From: a virus
DNA length: 22,150 bases
IMG/VR virus record: IMGVR_UViG_3300007515_000045
Span: 1-22,150 of that record
Direction: 5' to 3' (one strand)
Below, piece after piece: positions 3,146 through 18,974 of the stretch. The position numbers and the translations under genes are program-made. The notes under the pieces were generated by a model. It was not told where the DNA came from, did not search any database, and worked only from the letters and a program-made list of their open reading frames with translations. Each line of letters begins with the position of its first letter. The first letter of the stretch is position 1.

Positions 3146-4454
3146 TAAATACCTCCGCTAAGGCTTCGTCTGAAGATGAGTATATCTTACATCTATCACC
3201 AGCAACACCCATCTTAACTCTGCCACTTTTTCCATACCTGTTCTTGCCAAGTATCATTTCAATTCCATATTCACCAGCTTCGGATTCTTGTAGATAGTAT
3301 CTCCACTCATAATACATGAACAATATAATTTCAGCATCCTGCTCAATAGAACCACTATCCCTTAAATCTCTGAGAAGCGGTCTTTTGTTTGCTCTTGTCT
3401 CACATTCTCTATTCAGCTGTGAGACCAAAAGAACAGCCATGTTATTTCTTTTAGCTGACCATTTATATTGTTTCATTATGTTGTCGATACGTATTCTATT
3501 GTCATCAATACCTGAAACGCTTACCAGTCCAATGTAATCATCTACTACAACATCTGGTGAATGTTTTCTAATTTCACGCATAGAACCATCTATGTCAAAT
3601 ATATTATCAAACATTACAAGATTCTGATAATTTTTCCGTATTCTTTGCTTAGCTTGTTCAAGCATGTCGGTATCATTCTCATTAAGCTCTCCGATACGTA
3701 TCTTTTCATACGATAAACTTTCAGATTCAAGAACGATAAGCTTTTTCATCATCTCTACGTTGCTCATCTCTCTGTTCATCACCAATACTTTGTACCCAGA
3801 GTGAATCAAATTACGAACAACATTTAACATTGTCGTTGATTTGAAATGACCAGGCCTACCAGCAATAACAGTAATTTCACCTCTTGTCATACCTCCAGTT
3901 AAATCATCAAGCTCTGGATATCCAAATCTCACCAGAGAATCTTCATCGAACATTTTTTCAAATGTTTCCTCTAATAGTCCGTCAATGTCAAATCCATTAC
4001 CGATATGCATATCAAGAATGGTTTCAATCTCTCTATGCAACTGTTCCAGTACTCCACGGGCATCAGAGTTCTTTACTTTGACGACCCCTTTGACTTCCTC
4101 AGCCTTTAATATGACATTTCTCAAAAGCCATTTCTCATACAGAATCTTAGCATTGTTCTCGTAATTGGATACTCCAATAACATCAATCAACCCAGTTAGA
4201 TTGTAAGCCATTTCACTGGTTGCAAATGATGGTGGAACTTCAGCAATAAGTGAGTTTAGAGTAATATCTTCAGTACCCTTTTTTCTTAAATCAAGCATAC
4301 CTCTCCATACGCTTCTGTGAAAATTATTGTAGAATACTGTCTCAGATGGAATATACTGCATAACCTTATCAATAATAGAGTTATCCAATATCATTTGACC
4401 GAGAAGTTCTTGCTCTATATCTTGCGAATTGGGTAGAGTTAGAGTCTGATTCAT
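3138..4454 (-). CDS. dnaB: DnaB-type replicative DNA helicase
   Basis: This is a hexameric 5'-3' helicase that unwinds DNA at the phage fork, using ATP. The N-terminal domain (PNSQDIEQELLGQMIL, residues 8-23) matches DnaB. The RecA-like core has Walker A GRPGHFKSTT at 199-208, Walker B VVVDDYIGLV at 302-311 and the DnaB signature VSQLNRECETR at 344-354 with LRDLRDSGSIEQDAE after it. At 438 residues it is a normal length. I start it at ATG 4454, which overlaps the previous stop as TAATG and begins at the family's usual N-terminus; ATG 4496 in the same frame would add 14 unconserved residues. No primase or helicase loader is recognised nearby. Confidence 0.95.
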   Translation of the reverse strand: MNQTLTLPNSQDIEQELLGQMILDNSIIDKVMQYIPSETVFYNNFHRSVWRGMLDLRKKGTEDITLNSLIAEVPPSFATSEMAYNLTGLIDVIGVSNYENNAKILYEKWLLRNVILKAEEVKGVVKVKNSDARGVLEQLHREIETILDMHIGNGFDIDGLLEETFEKMFDEDSLVRFGYPELDDLTGGMTRGEITVIAGRPGHFKSTTMLNVVRNLIHSGYKVLVMNREMSNVEMMKKLIVLESESLSYEKIRIGELNENDTDMLEQAKQRIRKNYQNLVMFDNIFDIDGSMREIRKHSPDVVVDDYIGLVSVSGIDDNRIRIDNIMKQYKWSAKRNNMAVLLVSQLNRECETRANKRPLLRDLRDSGSIEQDAEIILFMYYEWRYYLQESEAGEYGIEMILGKNRYGKSGRVKMGVAGDRCKIYSSSDEALAEVFNG

Positions 4455-4654: not shown

Positions 4655-5174
4655 CGGCAGAACCGTTTCTAACCCTTACCAGATTAGCTGCGGCTGTTAT
4701 TTGCCTACCATATTTACCAGACCATTCATCATGACCAACACTAATTACAACTGACTTGTCCAATAGAAGGTCTTCGGTTATAGAAGGCAGATTAACTACT
4801 ACTCTCGGCTCATCACCTGAGTTCCCTTCTAATTCAAGTTTCTGTAAAGGTATGTGTAATTTATCAAGGAATTTCTTGTAATTGGTATTGCTACCTCCTG
4901 TTATTCGTCTGCCTTCTTCATCTTTAGAGCCACGAAATCTCCATTGTCCGTAGTCTTTAACCTCTCTGCCACCGCAATTATGTACATTATCATCAATCTG
5001 ATATATGGGTTTGTAGATAACCGCTTTACCTTTGGTCTTAGTGCTGACTTTATGAACTGATAACCCAACTATTCTAGCGGGATAAGTACCTTCTGGTACT
5101 AAAGATGATATGTTCGGGTCATAATAAACATCGTCATCATCAAAATCATCAAGCAATTCGTTTATATTTGTCAT
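4644..5174 (-). CDS. DUF669-like phage replication or recombination protein
   Basis: The start has an Asp-rich helix (LLDDFDDDDVYYDP), followed by SLVPEGTYPARIVGLSV and then YKPIYQIDD. This 'PEGxYxAxI' opening and beta-rich body are seen in phage DUF669 proteins, which commonly sit beside annealing proteins and helicases and are thought to bind single-stranded DNA. The tail HDEWSGKYGRQITAAANLVRVR suits the last strands of an OB-like domain. An earlier in-frame GTG at 5180 is only one base from the AAAGGAG site, while ATG 5174 is 7 bases from it and overlaps the previous stop as ATGA, so ATG 5174 is the start. The assignment is by motif feel and neighbourhood, not a search. Confidence 0.6.
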   Translation of the reverse strand: MTNINELLDDFDDDDVYYDPNISSLVPEGTYPARIVGLSVHKVSTKTKGKAVIYKPIYQIDDNVHNCGGREVKDYGQWRFRGSKDEEGRRITGGSNTNYKKFLDKLHIPLQKLELEGNSGDEPRVVVNLPSITEDLLLDKSVVISVGHDEWSGKYGRQITAAANLVRVRNGSADEQ

Positions 5175-5674
5175 ATCCACTCTCCTTTAGCGTCTGCATC
5201 TACGCCAGTGTCTCCACCAAATTTCTGACCATTTGAGCCAACGTATTTATTGTCATCGAACCTACCCATAAAGACATCAGCATTAAACCCAAGCCTTGAA
5301 AGACCCTTGGTAATTGCGTCTGTCTGAACCTTCTTAACACAGTCGTCATCAAGCTTATTACCCATCATTACTCTGATAGAGCTACTGATAGGAAATTCTC
5401 CCTCAACATCACCAGCTTCGTCTTGGTATTTGTAGTAAAATGTAGCGGTATACACGATAAGCGTATCATTTAATATTGGAGTATACCTCTCATCCTTGAC
5501 ACCAAACCCATGACCGAAAGCTCCGAACACCTCAGTTGCGTTTTTGATTTGATATTGAGCCCCAATCGCAGTGAATCCACCGCGCTGATTAACTTTAGTT
5601 GTGAACTCAGGGTCGGTATTCTCGACCTGTTCCCACAAAAATAAGTTGCCATTTTTAACTTTCTGCTCTGCCAT
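5171..5674 (-). CDS. Single-strand annealing protein, Rad52/Sak-like
   Basis: The protein likely binds single-stranded DNA and anneals complementary strands during phage recombination. Supporting features are WEQVENTDPEFTTKVN near residue 14, the middle block ATEVFGAFGHGFGVKDE, a beta strand pair ending YYKYQDEAG, and the C-terminal VQTDAITKGLSRLGFNADVF followed by GRFDDNKYV. This K-x-x-x-TDA...KGLSRLGF...DD-KY pattern is typical of phage annealing proteins of the Sak/Rad52 type. At 167 residues the length fits. It is followed by the DUF669-like gene and preceded further up by a Cas4-like exonuclease, a common recombination set. ERF family membership cannot be excluded by eye. Confidence 0.72.
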   Translation of the reverse strand: MAEQKVKNGNLFLWEQVENTDPEFTTKVNQRGGFTAIGAQYQIKNATEVFGAFGHGFGVKDERYTPILNDTLIVYTATFYYKYQDEAGDVEGEFPISSSIRVMMGNKLDDDCVKKVQTDAITKGLSRLGFNADVFMGRFDDNKYVGSNGQKFGGDTGVDADAKGEWI

Positions 5675-5831
5675 TCTGTTCTCCTTTTTGTTTTTTCTCG
5701 TAAAAAATTGGTGCGGCCCACCCTATAAGCTCAAATAACTGAACTATCACACTATTGTTTAGCTTTTCAAGCAGTGTAGGGCGAAGCCCTAAAATAATCA
5801 ATTCTTTTTCCATTACATCTCTATCGCTCAT
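5655..5831 (-). CDS. Small hypothetical protein, 58 aa, first gene of the replication operon
   Basis: The frame opens at ATG 5831 after a strong AGGAG site 6 bases upstream. It overlaps the annealing-protein gene by 20 bases and carries that gene's AAAGGAG site in its own last codons. The protein is helical (DVMEKELIILGLRPTLLEKLN) with a more hydrophobic middle (VIVQLFELIGWAAPIFY) that is too polar at its edges for a confident membrane call. No family is recognised. It could be a small accessory factor for recombination, or mainly a leader cistron that couples ribosomes into the annealing gene. Confidence 0.6.
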   Translation of the reverse strand: MSDRDVMEKELIILGLRPTLLEKLNNSVIVQLFELIGWAAPIFYEKKQKGEQNGRAES

Positions 5832-5937
5832 TATAGTCTCCTGTAAAATATTGTATTGTAAAAACAGATATAATAGCTATAAAAAGCAAGGTATGTTCAA
5901 TGCATATATTCATAATAATAATCCTGTACTAATATGG
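5832..5937 (-). promoter_or_regulatory. Possible promoter and leader for the replication operon
   Basis: This AT-rich 106-base stretch lies between the candidate pseudoknot and the 58-residue gene. On the minus strand TTGAAC and TATTAT occur with a 19-base spacer, a weak sigma70-like pair; the spacing is longer than ideal. If this promoter is used, the pseudoknot lies outside the operon leader. If transcription comes from upstream, the pseudoknot is part of the leader. No other structure or reading frame stands out. Confidence 0.3.
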
Positions 5938-6020
5938 GCTCGACGGACTCGGCATGGTGGAGGAAAATAAAGCAAACCCCCACCAATGACGTTATTTCGT
6001 TGTCTAGAGCAACCGAGTCC
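5938..6020 (-). ncRNA. Candidate structured RNA: H-type pseudoknot with an internal hairpin
   Basis: Two stems interlock. GGACTCGG at 5945-5952 pairs perfectly with CCGAGTCC at 6013-6020. GCTCGAC at 5938-5944, directly adjacent, pairs with GTC and GAGC at 6002-6010 across a two-base TA bulge. Inside lies a third stem, 5955-5963 with 5977-5985. That stem has nine pairs if the minus strand is transcribed, because one position becomes a U-G wobble instead of an A-C mismatch. The block is visibly richer in G and C than its AT-rich flanks. Both neighbours are minus-strand genes, so I place it on that strand, as a leader or intercistronic element of the recombination and replication operon. It matches no riboswitch or ribozyme I can name. 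The strand is not proven. Confidence 0.5.
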
Positions 6021-6048
6021 AATCACTACCAAAAACCTACATCTTCAG

Positions 6049-6519
6049 CTAAGCTGACTTTTGATAGTCTTGTTCTTTTGAATCAGAGCTTGTTAGCTCC
6101 TTATCAATATGTTCAAAGGCGCTAGCAATTCGGGATAGTATTCTATTGGTATCCTTTACCATTCCACCATTCATTCTCAGGTGCTCTGACACTCCGAGCA
6201 GTCTATTGGACAAAGGAAGAACAACATCAATAAGTTTTTGAATCAGAGCATTCTGTTTCTCCAGATGTTCTGACATAAACTCTTCAGTATGATGAGCTTC
6301 ATTAGGAGCACTAACAATATTGTTTAGAGTCTGTGTCTTATGAAGAGCAGCTGTCCTTTGTTTATATTTATTGAAATCCCAGTCGGAATTCATTCCCTGG
6401 TACACAACCCATTTACTGAAACCCAACGCTTCAGCAATCATTGACGCTTTAACACCGTTATCTCTCAGCATTCGCATGCTTGAAAGAATTTCTTGTGTTA
6501 CTTTTCTGTTTCGAGCCAT
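6049..6519 (-). CDS. Helix-turn-helix DNA-binding protein, 156 aa
   Basis: The N-terminal 45 residues read as a helix-turn-helix: a first helix around ILSSMRMLRDNGV, then KASMIAEALGFSKWVVYQGM, where AEALGFS is the turn and SKWVVYQGM the recognition helix. The remaining two thirds is helical and probably a dimerisation or coiled-coil part (EHLEKQNALIQKLIDVVLPL and later RILSRIASAFEHIDKEL). I start at ATG 6519 because AAAGGAG lies 6 bases ahead; the longer frame would run through the neighbouring ribosome site. It ends about 30 bases before the pseudoknot element. It may regulate phage transcription, but its targets cannot be read here. Confidence 0.65.
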   Translation of the reverse strand: MARNRKVTQEILSSMRMLRDNGVKASMIAEALGFSKWVVYQGMNSDWDFNKYKQRTAALHKTQTLNNIVSAPNEAHHTEEFMSEHLEKQNALIQKLIDVVLPLSNRLLGVSEHLRMNGGMVKDTNRILSRIASAFEHIDKELTSSDSKEQDYQKSA

Positions 6520-6536
6520 TACAACTCCTTTCTTGT

Positions 6537-6812
6537 TTATTTCTTTTTGTACATTTTTGATTCTGTGCCCAACCACCATCCGTTACCATTTTGAATGAAT
6601 AGGCTAGACCTATCCTTTTCATAATTAGGGTCTCCAATGTCGCCTGAATACGGCCACCCACGACTTTGTTCACGCCAATCTCTTTTAGACATAGCCCTTA
6701 CGTTTTGTATACAGTCTATACAATGAGGCCTAACCTTCTCTTCACTAGCCTTGTACCTGTAAAATTCTTTTATGTCTTTTTCGACCTTGCAAGTTATACA
6801 AACTTTCTTCAT
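6537..6812 (-). CDS. Zinc-finger-like protein, 91 aa
   Basis: The N-terminus carries CITCKVEKDIKEFYRY and then RPHCIDCIQN, a CxxC...CxxC module with the Lys and Phe-Tyr spacing often seen in the zinc part of phage HNH-type endonucleases. No HNH catalytic core follows, so the protein is at most the zinc module of such an enzyme or an independent small factor. The C-terminal half is rich in Trp, Gly and Asp with no recognised motif. Its start overlaps the nuclease gene's stop as ATGA. A nucleic-acid-binding role is inferred. Confidence 0.6.
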   Translation of the reverse strand: MKKVCITCKVEKDIKEFYRYKASEEKVRPHCIDCIQNVRAMSKRDWREQSRGWPYSGDIGDPNYEKDRSSLFIQNGNGWWLGTESKMYKKK

Positions 6813-7546
6813 TTAAGTCCCAGCAAACCTCCACCACAAGCTTCAAAATAAGAACAATACTTCTCGTTACATTCCCACCTTTGAACAGGAGCAAATCCTA
6901 TTTCAATCGGAGGAGCTCCATCTTTGACAGATTCGTTAACGCGAGTCCAGTAATCTACCGCTTCGTCTATTGTAGACATAGGCACATCCAACTCACGCAT
7001 TTTAGAATCATTCTTGTTGTAAAACAATAATTTCATTGAATCTATTTTTGGGTAGTCATGTATATAGTGTATGTTATACCAATGAGCGTATGTTGCAGTC
7101 TGCATCATGTAGTTTTTAACGGATTCTGGGTCGTAATGTGCCTTACCGAAGATTGTTCGCCACTTCCAATAATTACATGACTTTATATCATACAGCACAC
7201 CATCATCAACCATCACCAGGTCAATAAAACCTCTAACGTTTAAATCTTGCAGGTATAATTCTTTTTCTATGAAAATACGAGCTCCACTATTTGACGCATA
7301 CCATTGAACAGCGTCTTGTATATCTTTATGAAGGACATCACCAAGGCGAAATAGCCTTAGAGTGTCAGCTGGTATATCGGAGGTTTGTACCTTTTCTACT
7401 GATGAATAATAGTGTTTACGTGCACACATACCTGCTGATGAAGAATGAAACCACTCCTCTTTACCATCGTATCTTTTGGATTTTTCAGCGTTTAGGTGTG
7501 CAACGTAATCATCATAGATTTGAGTGACTTTTGATATTTGAGCCAT
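6809..7546 (-). CDS. Cas4/RecB-like PD-(D/E)XK nuclease with four-Cys cluster
   Basis: The protein is likely an exonuclease for phage recombination. The core has GFIDLVMV with Asp109, then LYDIKSC with Asp120 and Lys122, and QTATYAHW at 149-156, the three sites of the RecB/Cas4 branch. Cys41 (AGMCARKHYY) lies ahead of the core, and Cys226, Cys231 and Cys237 (WECNEKYCSYFEAC) follow it. This one-plus-three layout is what Cas4 and AddB proteins use to hold an iron-sulfur cluster. Length (245 residues) is within the family range. No CRISPR array or cas1/cas2 is present, so it is a stand-alone phage form. Working with the annealing protein 1.1 kb downstream, it could supply single-stranded ends. 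It overlaps the preceding gene by 35 bases. Confidence 0.82.
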   Translation of the reverse strand: MAQISKVTQIYDDYVAHLNAEKSKRYDGKEEWFHSSSAGMCARKHYYSSVEKVQTSDIPADTLRLFRLGDVLHKDIQDAVQWYASNSGARIFIEKELYLQDLNVRGFIDLVMVDDGVLYDIKSCNYWKWRTIFGKAHYDPESVKNYMMQTATYAHWYNIHYIHDYPKIDSMKLLFYNKNDSKMRELDVPMSTIDEAVDYWTRVNESVKDGAPPIEIGFAPVQRWECNEKYCSYFEACGGGLLGLK

Positions 7547-7700: not shown

Positions 7701-7846
7701 TTTTGTCCTCAATTTGTTAATGAATTTATTACAATATTTTTTTATGTCCAATACTTTTTTAATGTTTTTTTGTATTATTTAATACAGGTATATATAATAA
7801 TATATAGCTATATTAAAATTACTACAACTATAACTTTAATAACATA
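7701..7846 (-). promoter_or_regulatory. AT-rich leader and promoter region of the 7.7-6.0 kb operon
   Basis: This noncoding stretch is almost all A and T. On the minus strand TTGGAC is followed 17 bases later by TAAATT, a weak sigma70-like pair near the gene. The decamer TAGTTGTAGT lies at 7821-7830 on the minus strand and recurs in the 14.97 kb gap on the opposite strand. No reading frame of note is present. Confidence 0.4.
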
Positions 7847-7876
7847 AAGTCTAGGCTTAAGCTAAAGCCTAGACTT
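7847..7876 (-). repeat. Perfect 12-bp inverted repeat (hairpin), terminator or regulatory element
   Basis: AAGTCTAGGCTT at 7847-7858 and AAGCCTAGACTT at 7865-7876 are exact reverse complements around a six-base loop. The stop codon of the upstream minus-strand gene lies 35 bases before it. There is no long T run after it on the minus strand, so it is a poor classical terminator. Part of it, CTAGGCTTAAGC (7851-7862), recurs exactly at 14939-14950 in another hairpin. Confidence 0.6.
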
Positions 7877-7910
7877 GTATGTTGTATGTGATTCTGCGGA
7901 AACTGTTTAT

Positions 7911-8522
7911 TCAACAAATCCTGAACCCTCCTGAATGCTCACAGAAGTCCGCAAACTCAACCACATTATCGACGCTAAACGGATATGATTTACCCCATGC
8001 TTTTACCTTACCAGTGCCTTTACAGGCATTGCATCCACTACACTCATGAGCCCATTCAAATCCACCGGGCCTTTTCTGTTCTAAAGAATCGTGGTACTTC
8101 AGCCATTCTGATTCCGATTGCCATCCCATCCATTCTTCTCTTGTACCAGTTCCGTTACATATACCGCATTCTTCGTCTGGTAGAGACCGTACCTTCTTTT
8201 CATAAGAATTAGAGTACGATTCTACTGAGCCATCACCAATTAGCTTTCTTAATCGACTAGCTATTCGCATTGACTTTGTTTTGCATATCTCATGACCGCC
8301 ATTATTAGTGCCACCACTAATGTCCTTTTCTGACAGAAAATCCTCGCAATTATTTGCAACAAAAGACCACAATGGAGACCAGTACCATACATTATTTCTA
8401 AAGTACGCTCCCCTTGTATTGTTTTGCCAAGCAAAATATGCTTGAGTTGTTTCCTCATCAGAAAAATCGCAATCAGGCACTACTGATTCTGACGGCATAA
8501 GACCATATAGGTCATATCCCAT
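7911..8522 (-). CDS. Phage protein with DnaJ-like CxxCxGxG motifs, 203 aa
   Basis: The start MGYDLYGL is shared by phage proteins of unknown function. The first half has aromatic-rich segments (NNVWYWSPLWSF). The second half holds CGICNGTGT and CNACKGTGK, the same CxxCxGxG unit that binds zinc in DnaJ. Two such pairs could hold one zinc ion and grip an unfolded chain or nucleic acid. There is no J domain, so it is not a DnaJ. AAGGAG lies 8 bases before ATG 8522. The candidate RNA structure at 8545-8622 ends just 8 bases ahead of that site, so translation may be controlled by it. Confidence 0.65.
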   Translation of the reverse strand: MGYDLYGLMPSESVVPDCDFSDEETTQAYFAWQNNTRGAYFRNNVWYWSPLWSFVANNCEDFLSEKDISGGTNNGGHEICKTKSMRIASRLRKLIGDGSVESYSNSYEKKVRSLPDEECGICNGTGTREEWMGWQSESEWLKYHDSLEQKRPGGFEWAHECSGCNACKGTGKVKAWGKSYPFSVDNVVEFADFCEHSGGFRIC

Positions 8523-8544: not shown

Positions 8545-8622
8545 GTAACATGAGGCTATGGTAGCTTCCACCTGCATATTCGTATGATGTACCACATCAA
8601 GCGTTTCTAGCCTCAATGTTAC
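8545..8622 (-). ncRNA. Candidate 5' leader structure: long hairpin with alternative fold
   Basis: GTAACATGAGGCTA at 8545-8558 pairs with TAGCCTC and ATGTTAC at 8608-8622, giving 14 pairs with one bulged base. A second stem, TGGTA (8559-8563) with TACCA (8590-8594), stacks directly on one side. A short stem, CATA with TATG, encloses TTCG at 8579-8582. TGATG (8585-8589) can instead pair with CATCA (8595-8599), putting TACCA in the loop, which excludes the second stem. It lies between two minus-strand genes, 8 bases from the ribosome site of the downstream one. No T run follows, so it is not an intrinsic terminator. It matches no RNA family I can name. Confidence 0.45.
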
Positions 8623-10240: not shown

Positions 10241-12296
10241 ACTTCAGAGCGGCTTCAGTAAGCTGATTGACTATTCGCTTCATTCGTGAAAAGTTATAGA
10301 TATTATTGTCGTTGTACTTGAATCCATAAATAGCAAAATTATCGAACAGAAAACAATAACAATGAGCATTAACACTCCTGTATGCTTTCGTCACTAATCC
10401 TGCTTTTATTCCACTTACAACCCATCCACGCCTTTTCAGATGTTTCGATAGTTTGCGCGTATTTATCTTAATAGCTTTATAGATTGGTAAGTAAATATCC
10501 CCGGCGCTTTCCGAGATGTGGAACCTTCTGATAATCCTCTCTATTCCATCAAGCGCCATAGCATCGGGATAACCATTGATTTCCACCGAAGCGATTAATA
10601 AATTACTAGCATCTGTTTGGGATGTACTAAATTTAAAGCCCTTCCCAATCATTGTAATTTTATCACCATCCTCAACTACTTCTTTAGCGCATTTGGATAA
10701 CATTCGGAGAGCTTTAGTCCCCCAAATGCCATCGGATAAGACATCAGAAAATTCAATGTACTTATGATTTACCACATTACGCAAATTGAGAATGCCATTA
10801 TTACGACCATTATCGTAATTAGATGAAAATAGCCTGATAATAGCATTATCAACGTTATATTCATTCACATTCACCAACGTACCATAGCTTCCGTTTCGAT
10901 TGTTCCACCAATTCAAGGCAGTCCCCAAACTGTCAGATGAAATAATGAGCATCAGACCTTTGTCTTTAGCCCATCTTATGTCAAAAGTGCTATGGGGTTT
11001 TTCACTTGATGATGAAAAAAGCGTATATCGAGCGATAACTTCGTTTTTAGAGTATCTGCGTATTTTCCATGATGACCACCGAGGAATTTTTAGTAAATCC
11101 CTTATTGTGCAGTTTTCATCAACGAACGCAACATCACACTTTATTTTATCTGTCGGAGCGTAGGAAACTTTATCTATATCTATAAGCTTATAAGGTTTTT
11201 TGCGCAATAATTTATCGTTAATGATTTCAAAGTCATCAACGATTGCAACATTGTCATTAGAGACTCTATGTTGCATATCTCTGTGGGCAAGCGTCGAGTA
11301 ATTATCATCAGTATAGTCATAAACACCATAGATTTCATCATCGCTGGGTATTACCCTGGATGTATCTATAGGTTCTGCTTTAGTTAGGTAAGCAATCTTA
11401 GATGGCATGGAAAATTCCTGTTCCTCACCATCATCTAAAGATACAGCTCCTTCAAACTCAGCATCGTCTAACTTGGCAATACTCCCATTGTTTTGGGAAT
11501 ACTTCTTTTTCTGAGCATCTTTTAATAGACTGTGGTTTTCAGGTGTTTTTGTAATAAACTGATAAACCAAGCTATTCCAATCAGCTCCATTACCGAGTAG
11601 ACTGATAGCGTCAAGAAGTTGTCGAATCTCCTGTATGGTAGCGGGTTTAGACATTCCGCTCATCACAGCTTTTTCATATAACTTGATTGCATTACCTAAA
11701 TGCGGATGACCATCATGAGTTATCCTCAACGCTGACATAACGAGACTTGGCTCGAGTGGATTAACATCAATCTTTGGAAACCTACGCAACAAAGCCTCGT
11801 GAAATTCACGTTCATCATTTGCAGTGAAGAATATGAACATATTATCGAGGTTTGCTTGTATATCGGTACCAGGTATTGATAAACGCCCGTACTGAAGGAA
11901 GTCTAAAAAGAATCCATCAGCAGTAGGTCTTGTTTTATCCCACTCGTCAAGTACAAGCATCACTTTATTTTTATGCGATGCTTCAGCCGCTTTGAAAACA
12001 GTTGATTTCTTTATCTCGACTCCGCTTTTAGTTGTTTCACTGGGAAACATCTTAAGCACCAAGTCATCTTCGCGTGTTCCAGGAGCACATTGGTAGAAAT
12101 ACATCTCTACTCCAAGTGCTTTACTTAGGATTATTGGAAGGTAACTTTTACCTGTACCCGCTGGGCCGTATAAAAATGCTCCACTTACCGGTTTGGAATG
12201 TATCGCACTTGTTATACTCGCAGCGAAAGGTACGTCGCAGATATATCCGTTTTCATTAAGCGACTTATGTATGCCCTTAACGGTTATTTCTTGCAT
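10233..12296 (-). CDS. MoxR/CobS-like AAA+ ATPase with a long unknown C-terminal region
   Basis: The first 180 residues are an AAA+ module: Walker A GPAGTGKS at 44-51, Walker B MLVLDE at 113-118, sensor FFTANDE with Asn160, and a probable arginine finger in LLRRFPKID at 169-177. The arrangement, with a vWA partner gene downstream, points to the MoxR/CobS side of AAA+. A helical lid follows to about residue 240. The remaining 400 or so residues are not recognised. That part is roughly twice the size of the core and has mixed alpha/beta character, with a tail resembling a small folded domain (HLKRRGWVVSGIKAGLV). A typical MoxR or CobS is about 300-350 residues, so this tail is a real extension. 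Its stop overlaps the vWA start by 8 bases. Confidence 0.8.
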   Translation of the reverse strand: MQEITVKGIHKSLNENGYICDVPFAASITSAIHSKPVSGAFLYGPAGTGKSYLPIILSKALGVEMYFYQCAPGTREDDLVLKMFPSETTKSGVEIKKSTVFKAAEASHKNKVMLVLDEWDKTRPTADGFFLDFLQYGRLSIPGTDIQANLDNMFIFFTANDEREFHEALLRRFPKIDVNPLEPSLVMSALRITHDGHPHLGNAIKLYEKAVMSGMSKPATIQEIRQLLDAISLLGNGADWNSLVYQFITKTPENHSLLKDAQKKKYSQNNGSIAKLDDAEFEGAVSLDDGEEQEFSMPSKIAYLTKAEPIDTSRVIPSDDEIYGVYDYTDDNYSTLAHRDMQHRVSNDNVAIVDDFEIINDKLLRKKPYKLIDIDKVSYAPTDKIKCDVAFVDENCTIRDLLKIPRWSSWKIRRYSKNEVIARYTLFSSSSEKPHSTFDIRWAKDKGLMLIISSDSLGTALNWWNNRNGSYGTLVNVNEYNVDNAIIRLFSSNYDNGRNNGILNLRNVVNHKYIEFSDVLSDGIWGTKALRMLSKCAKEVVEDGDKITMIGKGFKFSTSQTDASNLLIASVEINGYPDAMALDGIERIIRRFHISESAGDIYLPIYKAIKINTRKLSKHLKRRGWVVSGIKAGLVTKAYRSVNAHCYCFLFDNFAIYGFKYNDNNIYNFSRMKRIVNQLTEAALKYV

Positions 12297-14535: not shown

Positions 14536-14585
14536 AAGATTGTTTCCTTCTGTTAGTTGTTGATTACTTCTATTCACAAGAGAAT

Positions 14586-14614
14586 ATAATACTTATGAGT
14601 ATTAAATAAAACAA
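14586..14614 (-). promoter_or_regulatory. Sigma70-like promoter for the 14.5 kb gene
   Basis: On the minus strand TTGTTT (14609-14614) is followed by exactly 17 bases and TATTAT (14586-14591). Transcription would start near 14579, about 45 bases before ATG 14535. Both boxes match the consensus in part, in a region where AT-rich chance matches are common; the exact spacing and fitting position raise confidence. Confidence 0.55.
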
Positions 14615-14931
14615 TTATTAAATAATATATTAATGTTGAGGTCTCCAAGTGGTGAATTTTGGACAAATTATTGTAATACTTAGTGGTCTCGTTTTTTTTA
14701 GGTTATAAAGGAGGGGTCTACGAATTATACTGTATATATATTATACATCATTTATATGGTTTTCAACCTAAACCCCGAATGTCCATAAAACAGGTGGGGG
14801 GTATGGTCGGGGGATAAAAGACCCACACCCATAATCATAAAATTTTCAACGTTTTTCCAGAAAAATTCTCCAATTCTATAAAATTCAATAAATCCACTTT
14901 CCCAAAAATTTTGCCAGAAATCTCACTAACC
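14615..14931. other. Noncoding centre of the divergent region, left part
   Basis: No reading frame with a credible start is present. The stretch holds a direct repeat of GGTCTC (near 14642 and 14684), an AAAGGAGGGG that no frame follows, the G-rich foldback at 14799-14830, and two similar segments beginning TTTTTCCAGAAA and TTTTGCCAGAAA about 60 bases apart. It could be a replication origin or operator region; nothing here is decisive. Confidence 0.4.
14799..14830. other. G-rich foldback, possible hairpin or G-quadruplex site
   Basis: GGGT (14799-14802) can pair with ACCC (14827-14830) and GGTC (14805-14808) with GACC (14820-14823), with small internal loops. The plus strand here has four close G runs (GG, GGGGGG, GG, GGGGG) between 14793 and 14813, unusual in this AT-rich phage. 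Confidence 0.4.
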
Positions 14932-14976
14932 TATAAGCCTAGGCTTAAGCATAGGCTTTATAATAGTAGTTGTAGT
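14932..14976 (+). promoter_or_regulatory. Hairpin plus TAGTTGTAGT module upstream of the rightward arm
   Basis: TATAAGCCTA (14932-14941) pairs with TAGGCT and TTATA (14952-14962) with one bulged T, giving a ten-pair hairpin. TAGTTGTAGT follows at 14967-14976. CTAGGCTTAAGC (14939-14950) and the decamer both recur at 7821-7862, with the decamer in the opposite orientation, so each copy faces its own operon. It could be a phage-specific promoter or operator. Confidence 0.5.
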
Positions 14977-15103
14977 TTAATTTATTTATAGATTCTATAT
15001 ATTTAGCTTATAATATATATATATACTATATATACTATATATAGTGTAGAAACCCGGAAACTTCTTGTTCTACGTTGTAGTCTAATGTAAATTGGATGTG
15101 TAA
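14977..15103 (+). promoter_or_regulatory. AT-rich leader of the rightward operon
   Basis: A TATAAT lies at 15009-15014 with only a weak -35 match. Long TA runs form CTATATAT and ATATATAG palindromes near 15026-15044. GTTGTAGT, eight bases of the upstream decamer, recurs near 15074. The ribosome site for the first gene is weak (GGATG, 5 bases before ATG 15104). Confidence 0.35.
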
Positions 15104-17390: not shown

Positions 17391-18974
17391 ATGGACAACG
17401 ACAAAATCAATATATTATCAGATGTCAAGGAGAAGGATGATGTTCTTGCGCGTTCTTATAGTGACCTTCTTTATTTTGGCAGGGCTTTTCTACCTGCCGA
17501 TTTTCTTAATAAGAGCAGTTCTCCCACCTTTCATGAAGAAGTGTCTCAAAAACTTATTGACACTCGCCCTGGTGCCCGTATATGCAATATTCTACCGAGG
17601 GGCTTTGGGAAGTCCATTCTATCGAAGGCTGCTATTCTACACAAGATTTGCTTCGCTCCGAAGGGAGAAAGACAATTCATTGCCTGGGTAGCGGAGGAGC
17701 AAGGACAGGCTATTGACCATCTTAAATATGTTAAGAGCCATTTAGAATATAATGAATCCATAAGATATTACTTTGGGAACCTGGCTGGTGATTCAGTTGG
17801 TAATAGGTGGACTGAAAAAGATATTGTTACTACAAAAGGGGACAGGCTGATTGCAAAGGGTACTTCTCAGAGACTTCGTGGTAGGACTGAGATTGATGTT
17901 CGTTATACTGGTATTGTATTGGATGACTTCGAATCTGAATTAAATACCAAAACACCCGAAAGACGGGATGAAATCAAAAAATGGATTGTATCTACGGTGT
18001 TCCCTGCATTGGAGGAGTCTCCTGGCCGTGAAGGATGGATATGGCTCTGTGGTACTATTGTTCACTATGATAGTTTTCTTCAAATGGTTGTTGATGGAAG
18101 TAGATTGGCTGAGCGGGAGAATCGTAAATACCCTTGGGATGTTACATTCTATAGAGCTATTCAAGATGGAAAATCAATATGGCCTGAGCAGTTTCCAGTA
18201 TCCAAGTTAGATTCTAAAAAACGTGAGTTTATTGAAGCTGGCCTTGTTAATAAGTTCGCTCAGGAATATATGAATGATGCCCGTGATTTATCATCCGCAG
18301 CGTTCAAAACAGATAGGATACAGTACCATGATGGGGCTTTTAAGGTTGTTGATAACTATACCTATTTGGTAATACGAAATGAAGCTATTCCAATCAATGT
18401 TTATATCGGTGTCGACATAGCGGCTACAGCGACACAGAAATCAGATTTTCAAGTAATAATGGTTATTGGAGTAGATGCAAATAAAAATCGGTATGTATTG
18501 GAATATTACCGTGAAAGAATACCAACATTCGATTTACCTGAAAAGATTATAGAAATGGCTAGAAAGTACAGTCCTGTTAGAAGAGTTACCATTGAAACCG
18601 TAGCTGCACAGGAGATGGTCAGAGATATGGTGACAAGAATGGCTTCTGAAGATAGAAGACTTATACCTGGAATATTTAAAGGTGTTAAACCACCCGCAGG
18701 AATTAAAAAGGCAGATAGACTCGAAACATCACTAGGCCCGATTGTAAATAGTAAAAAATTATATATTCGTAGGGAAATGACTGATTTGGTAGATGAGATG
18801 TTTGAACATCCCGTACCTAAGAATGATGACCTTATGGATGGATTGTACTATGCAGACTACTATTCTAAAGCTCCAATTAGTACATCTATATCTGTTGGTG
18901 AGATGAGAGCTGGTAAGAAAAAGAGTGGCAAATTAAGGGGATATTACAACTGGATGACGGGTGCTAGACGATAA
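17391..18974 (+). CDS. terL: Terminase large subunit (packaging ATPase and nuclease)
   Basis: This motor cuts concatemeric DNA and pumps it into the prohead. The ATPase half has Walker A PRGFGKS at 69-75, Walker B IVLDDFES at 175-182, and the coupling motif CGTIVHYDS at 220-228. The nuclease half is RNase H-like: GVDIAATATQKSDF with Asp342, IETVAAQEM with Glu402, and NDDLMDGLYYADYY with Asp480 and Asp483. At 527 residues it is full length. There is no clear ribosome site 5-10 bases before ATG 17391; the leader is AT-rich. Confidence 0.96.
   Translation: MDNDKINILSDVKEKDDVLARSYSDLLYFGRAFLPADFLNKSSSPTFHEEVSQKLIDTRPGARICNILPRGFGKSILSKAAILHKICFAPKGERQFIAWVAEEQGQAIDHLKYVKSHLEYNESIRYYFGNLAGDSVGNRWTEKDIVTTKGDRLIAKGTSQRLRGRTEIDVRYTGIVLDDFESELNTKTPERRDEIKKWIVSTVFPALEESPGREGWIWLCGTIVHYDSFLQMVVDGSRLAERENRKYPWDVTFYRAIQDGKSIWPEQFPVSKLDSKKREFIEAGLVNKFAQEYMNDARDLSSAAFKTDRIQYHDGAFKVVDNYTYLVIRNEAIPINVYIGVDIAATATQKSDFQVIMVIGVDANKNRYVLEYYRERIPTFDLPEKIIEMARKYSPVRRVTIETVAAQEMVRDMVTRMASEDRRLIPGIFKGVKPPAGIKKADRLETSLGPIVNSKKLYIRREMTDLVDEMFEHPVPKNDDLMDGLYYADYYSKAPISTSISVGEMRAGKKKSGKLRGYYNWMTGARR

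Follow-up and report, generated by a model that had tools for sequence, protein, structure and literature searches.

PeSLs of T4-type phages combine an early promoter with a stem-loop terminator (PMC2839356 and PMC4122927, as cited in PMC4503421). As far as that account goes, they form small stem-loop cassettes between genes, are reshuffled among related phages, and mark gene insertions or exchanges (PMC4503421). The RNA element described here resembles them in this respect, being a stem-loop unit that passes from one phage genome to another as a cassette. It differs from PeSLs, as they are portrayed there, in having a conserved three-way junction, and a U-run is present behind its closing stem P1 in L023 only. 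On the descriptions at hand, PeSL cassettes are the closest known counterpart in genomic behavior, and these descriptions do not include the present fold. The RNase III sites of phage T7 are irregular hairpins between the genes of the early polycistronic mRNA; several occur per genome and they have no conserved junction. They share with the element the intergenic position of a stem, whereas the element has a conserved junction and usually occurs once per contig. Like the element, the leader of T4 gene 32 is a structured RNA in a phage replication/recombination operon; it is an H-type pseudoknot linked to one gene, whereas the element is a three-way junction without a fixed gene (PMC3014915). 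GOLLD/ROOL, c4 antisense RNA, and Racr are phage-borne RNA genes, as the element would be, with a size and fold unlike those of the element, which has no Rfam match (PMC12286853, PMC2864571, PMC10651486).

The element lies between two minus-strand genes in a virus record of 22,150 bases, IMGVR_UViG_3300007515_000045, the whole of which was analyzed and is called the window below. An earlier note had drawn three helices at this site, more than chance should give, and had pointed to the minus (coding) strand. The three helices are present at the stated coordinates, and the strand was borne out: region 5930-6030 has a folding z score of -3.8 on the minus strand, equaled by none of 200 shuffles, and folds less well on the plus strand (z -2.2), and G-U pairs are in excess on the coding strand throughout the family.

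Homologues and distribution

Related phage contigs were collected using the annealing protein (5171-5674) and the PD-(D/E)XK nuclease (6809-7546) of the window as queries. A homologous RNA was found in the spacer between or near the annealing and nuclease genes of L001, L002, L023, L030, and L093. With pattern scans and a covariance model, R1, the collection grew to 26 distinct full-length members, and a pattern fixing only P1 and the UUG joint yielded two more, L337 and L339, giving about 28 distinct homologues in IMG/VR phage contigs. The copy in L131 is an exact repeat of that in L192, and L146 contains a partial member. Records carry one copy each, with the exception of G022, in which two copies of differing subtype were observed (17937-18014 and 28343-28412).

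Among 50,697 phage records, nothing matched the tested region of the window at the DNA level, and a blastn search of 50,697 phage records with a consensus-like element returned no match covering the element. No copy was found in six cultured phages that encode a related annealing protein, nor, at the pattern level, in cellular genomes; the 18 pattern matches obtained in prokaryote genomes all scored weakly in the model and had no proper P1. Pattern-only matches that had no P1 (e.g., L100 and L102-L122, or L135 and L190, where they lie within coding genes) were dropped as chance. Intergenic structure as a whole was not enriched in these phages over unrelated phages.

Rfam 15, at gathering as well as relaxed thresholds, gave no match to the element, either in the window or in any scanned relative, in agreement with the earlier view that it belongs to no named RNA family. 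A literature search, mostly outside subscription journals, retrieved no description of it. On these two grounds, this RNA family from uncultured bacterial viruses is previously undescribed.

The conserved fold

The element is predicted to be a three-way-junction RNA with a near-gapless junction, closed by a long outer stem, P1. Its common architecture consists of P1 ending in GU, then UG-P2-CA, the hairpin RYG(AAUNAA)CRY (P3), C-NNN, and the returning strand P1'. P1 measures approximately 8-14 bp across the family. In the window, its 5' strand UGGACUCGGU (6012-6021, minus strand) pairs with the 3' strand GCCGAGUCCG (5944-5953, minus strand); these include the eight perfect pairs, 5945-5952 with 6013-6020, that had been noticed before, which are present as described and show covariation in the homologues. 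P2 (6001-6011, minus strand) has an invariant UG (6010-6011) and CA (6001-6002) and has shrunk in the window to a minimal hairpin with the apical sequence CUCUAGA (6003-6009), while that of the relatives has two to nine pairs beyond UG/CA, mostly past a bulge of 1-2 nt. P3 is the hairpin ACG(AAAUAA)CGU in the window (5989-6000, minus strand); its stem occurs as ACG/CGU, GCG/CGC, GUG/CAC, or AUG/CAU, and its loop is either AAUNAA-like, with six bases, or AGUAUAAA/AGUAAAAA, with eight. The C that follows (5988, minus strand), which opens the joint leading back to P1, is found in every aligned member. Between P3 and the 3' strand of P1, the window carries a further hairpin, P4 (UGGUGGGGG/CCUCCACCA, 5955-5985, minus strand). 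The nine pairs of this hairpin (5955-5963 with 5977-5985), one of which is a U-G pair only on the minus strand, exist as the earlier note had them, but in the family P4 is an optional insert: 4 of the 26 members have an insert at this place (the window, L001, L002, and L194).

Standard pairs occupy 97.1% of the pair cells in the 26 sequences. Changes on both sides were observed at 11 of the 16 pairs, a result matched by none of 500 shuffles; they affect 9 of the 11 pairs of P1 and, as compensatory changes, 2 of the 3 pairs of P3. The UG/CA joint and the inner U-G of P1 are uninformative because they never vary. The covariation score of these sequences was 0.454, compared to 0.214 ± 0.017 after shuffling and at most 0.126 with slid partners. 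P2 is supported independently: the summed stem amounts to 132 pairs, compared to 90.9 ± 5.1 after the exchange of halves among members. Across the family, G-U cells number 52 and A-C cells 2, which marks the coding strand as the one that folds. Because part of P3 was prescribed by the patterns that yielded most members, the conservation of its loop rests on those obtained in other ways: the window, L001, L023, L030, L093, L206, L213, L337, and L339. The GUG/CAC and AUG/CAU variants of P3 fell outside the training set of R1. The same P3 hairpin is present in L337 and L339, which were found through P1 and UUG only, so the core is no search artifact.

Gene context

The gene upstream of the element in the window (6049-6579, minus strand) encodes a protein of 176 amino acids with weak similarity to transcription regulators, and its stop codon is located about 25 nt before the element. 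The first start codon downstream, at 27 nt, belongs to an ORF of 30 amino acids, MNICIEHTLLFIAIISVFTIQYFTGDYNER, with a ribosome-site-like AGGA (5821-5913, minus strand); further downstream lies the gene of the single-strand annealing protein relative, a member of a PHROG exonuclease/annealing family (5171-5674, minus strand). In the family, the element commonly starts 8-60 nt past a stop codon, and in about two thirds of the members it is followed by a ribosome site and a start codon, the latter 14-36 nt from its end. The downstream genes in the 26 contexts are mutually unrelated: in the relatives, the element precedes an annealing gene or small unrelated ORFs, follows an SSB-like gene, or lies within long noncoding regions. 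No start codon with a ribosome site occurs within 80-500 nt in L101, L149, L192, L268, and L275, and in L101 and L192 the element lies in long stretches with no gene or start codon close downstream. The same downstream gene, as would be expected for a gene-specific riboswitch or operator, was not found in the relatives. The proposal of a control element specific to the annealing protein and helicase operon is contradicted by these varying settings and by the 30-amino-acid ORF that comes next in the window, and no evidence was found for the ligand or protein sensing that had also been suggested.

Other structures were seen at the junction before the annealing gene that matches that of the window. 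L004 has a plain hairpin of 14 bp there (3692-3748), while L003 (3863-3962; 17-18 bits) and L005 (3768-3840) have diverged junction-like stems.

Movement of the element and neighboring structured units

The contigs L131 and L192 are otherwise unrelated, and the sole DNA they share is a stretch of 103 bp with 100% identity that comprises the element and a few flanking bases. In the pairs L001/L002 and L161/L300, similarity continues across the element and is then interrupted by an inserted gene, which starts at most about 20 nt from the 3' end of the element. L268 and L275, of which the flanks are about 90% alike, differ in a unit of about 90 bp, B, that is present in L275 and cleanly missing from L268, and a unit C precedes the element (A) in L149 and comes after it in L292 and L168. 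As judged from these comparisons, the element comes and goes as a movable cassette in phage operons.

Unit B is structured, GGGGCGGU...ACCGCCCC (L275, 1115-1208, minus strand). Unit C has a conserved hairpin, CUCGGAGWGAACCGAG, within a long closing stem and was located in L275 (1029-1114, minus strand) and L268 (4824-4909, plus strand), as well as near the element in L149, L168, and L292. A unit D, closed by AUGCGGGA...UCCCGCAU, is situated between two genes in L284 (1997-2081, minus strand) and L285 (3486-3590, plus strand). The window itself contains an element E (8545-8622, minus strand), in which GUAACAUUGAGGCUA...UAGCCUCAUGUUAC closes a three-way-junction-like fold between two genes, about 22 nt ahead of a start at 8522; it is missing from L001-L005 at the same gene junction. 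Two regions of the window, 7752-7910 and 14578-15103, hold similar palindromic stretches, AAGTCTAGGCTTTAGCTTAAGCCTAGACTT and TATGCTTAAGCCTAGGCTTATAGG, which are possible operator sites. A tRNA-like gene with a CAT anticodon, as identified by eye, lies in a gap of the element-A contig L298 (7218-7314, minus strand).

Possible roles of the element

Taken together, the comparisons indicate that the family exists, that it folds on the coding strand, and that its members are intergenic, usually present once per contig, and tied to no single downstream gene. The window thus contains one representative of this new phage RNA family, and we consider it about an even call that the element is an autonomous domain, most likely a noncoding RNA transcribed together with the operon. 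This reading is favored because of the independence from particular genes, the usual single copy per contig, the cases without a start codon nearby, and the gain and loss as a cassette. The element would be transcribed as part of a polycistronic mRNA and would form a self-contained domain, most likely a noncoding RNA that is possibly excised from the message, and its conserved core may be bound by a host or phage protein. A wider version, which we regard as doubtful, is that families A, B, C, D, and E constitute a previously unseen set of noncoding RNA genes in these phages, each of about 60-120 nt and closed by a long stem, that are gained, lost, and reordered singly like the genes of tRNA arrays, with family A being a trans-acting RNA on a host target in early infection. 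The main rival to an autonomous RNA, plausible though less probable, is a cis-acting mRNA element between stop codon and ribosome site that controls processing, stability, or translation of the polycistronic message, in the manner of the T7 RNase III sites or the T4 gene 32 leader, perhaps by way of a protein that binds the P3 loop. The tight placement of about two thirds of the members, on the coding strand between a stop codon and, 14-36 nt farther on, a start codon preceded by its ribosome site, fits such an element as well; the long P1 could serve as a substrate for RNase III or as a barrier to decay, and the hairpin of L004 and the junction-like stems of L003 and L005 stand at the matching junction. 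It is less easily reconciled with the unrelated downstream genes, with the five members that have no start codon and ribosome site nearby, and with the fact that a phage usually has a single copy instead of one at each gene junction. A general switch in which the P2 loop pairs with the ribosome site was rejected, since such pairing is within chance (p 0.08) and the upstream flank pairs equally well.

Hammerhead ribozymes have a core of CUGANGA and GAAA in a three-way junction and occur in phage intergenic regions. A new, hammerhead-like self-cleaving ribozyme is nevertheless very unlikely here: the element does have a three-way junction with invariant core bases, and L168 carries a type I hammerhead according to Rfam (11036-11091, minus strand, 37.6 bits), on the same strand as its element A and elsewhere in the contig, but hardly any unpaired bases are invariant besides the P3 loop and one C, the hammerhead core is missing in the aligned members, and Rfam gave no hammerhead, twister, pistol, hatchet, or HDV-like match at the element. 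Nor does it resemble an intrinsic terminator, a G+C-rich hairpin with a U-run directly after it, as a long U-run follows P1 in just one (L023) of the 26 tails. A mobile element or recombination site acting at the DNA level, with incidental RNA structure, is improbable too; it would account for the identical 103-bp copy in unrelated contigs and for gene insertions that begin at the 3' edge of the element, yet the G-U pairs on the coding strand and the covariation in a stem of 3 bp point to selection on a single-strand fold (G-T pairs being possible in single-stranded DNA), and neither target-site repeats nor a transposase of its own were seen. Least probable by far is the H-type pseudoknot sensor for the annealing-protein/helicase operon put forward in the earlier note. 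Its interlocking helix, seven pairs with a two-base bulge (5938-5944 with 6002-6010), can indeed be drawn in the window, and a pseudoknot operator is known for T4 gene 32, an SSB gene (PMC3014915). The second arm, GUCGAGC (5938-5944, minus strand), lies outside the conserved fold and has no equivalent in the 25 relatives, none of which has an interlocking helix at that place, formed by its P2 arm and the bases immediately 3' of P1; the helix uses bases that belong to P2 and P3 in the conserved three-way junction and is incompatible with them, and the element also occurs away from that operon. Among the three helices of that proposal, covariation was found in the eight-pair stem (P1) and not in the interlocking one, the nine-pair hairpin being the optional insert P4. 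As P2 of the window is only a minimal hairpin, it is conceivable that this phage alone has switched to the pseudoknot.

Implications

A well-supported structured RNA family is hereby added for phages without close cultured relatives, and small RNA cassettes are shown to be mobile among phage operons. With the covariance model and its 28 members, specific sequences are available for probing, for mapping transcripts, and for target searches. Whether phages have movable noncoding RNA genes beyond tRNAs is now a testable question.
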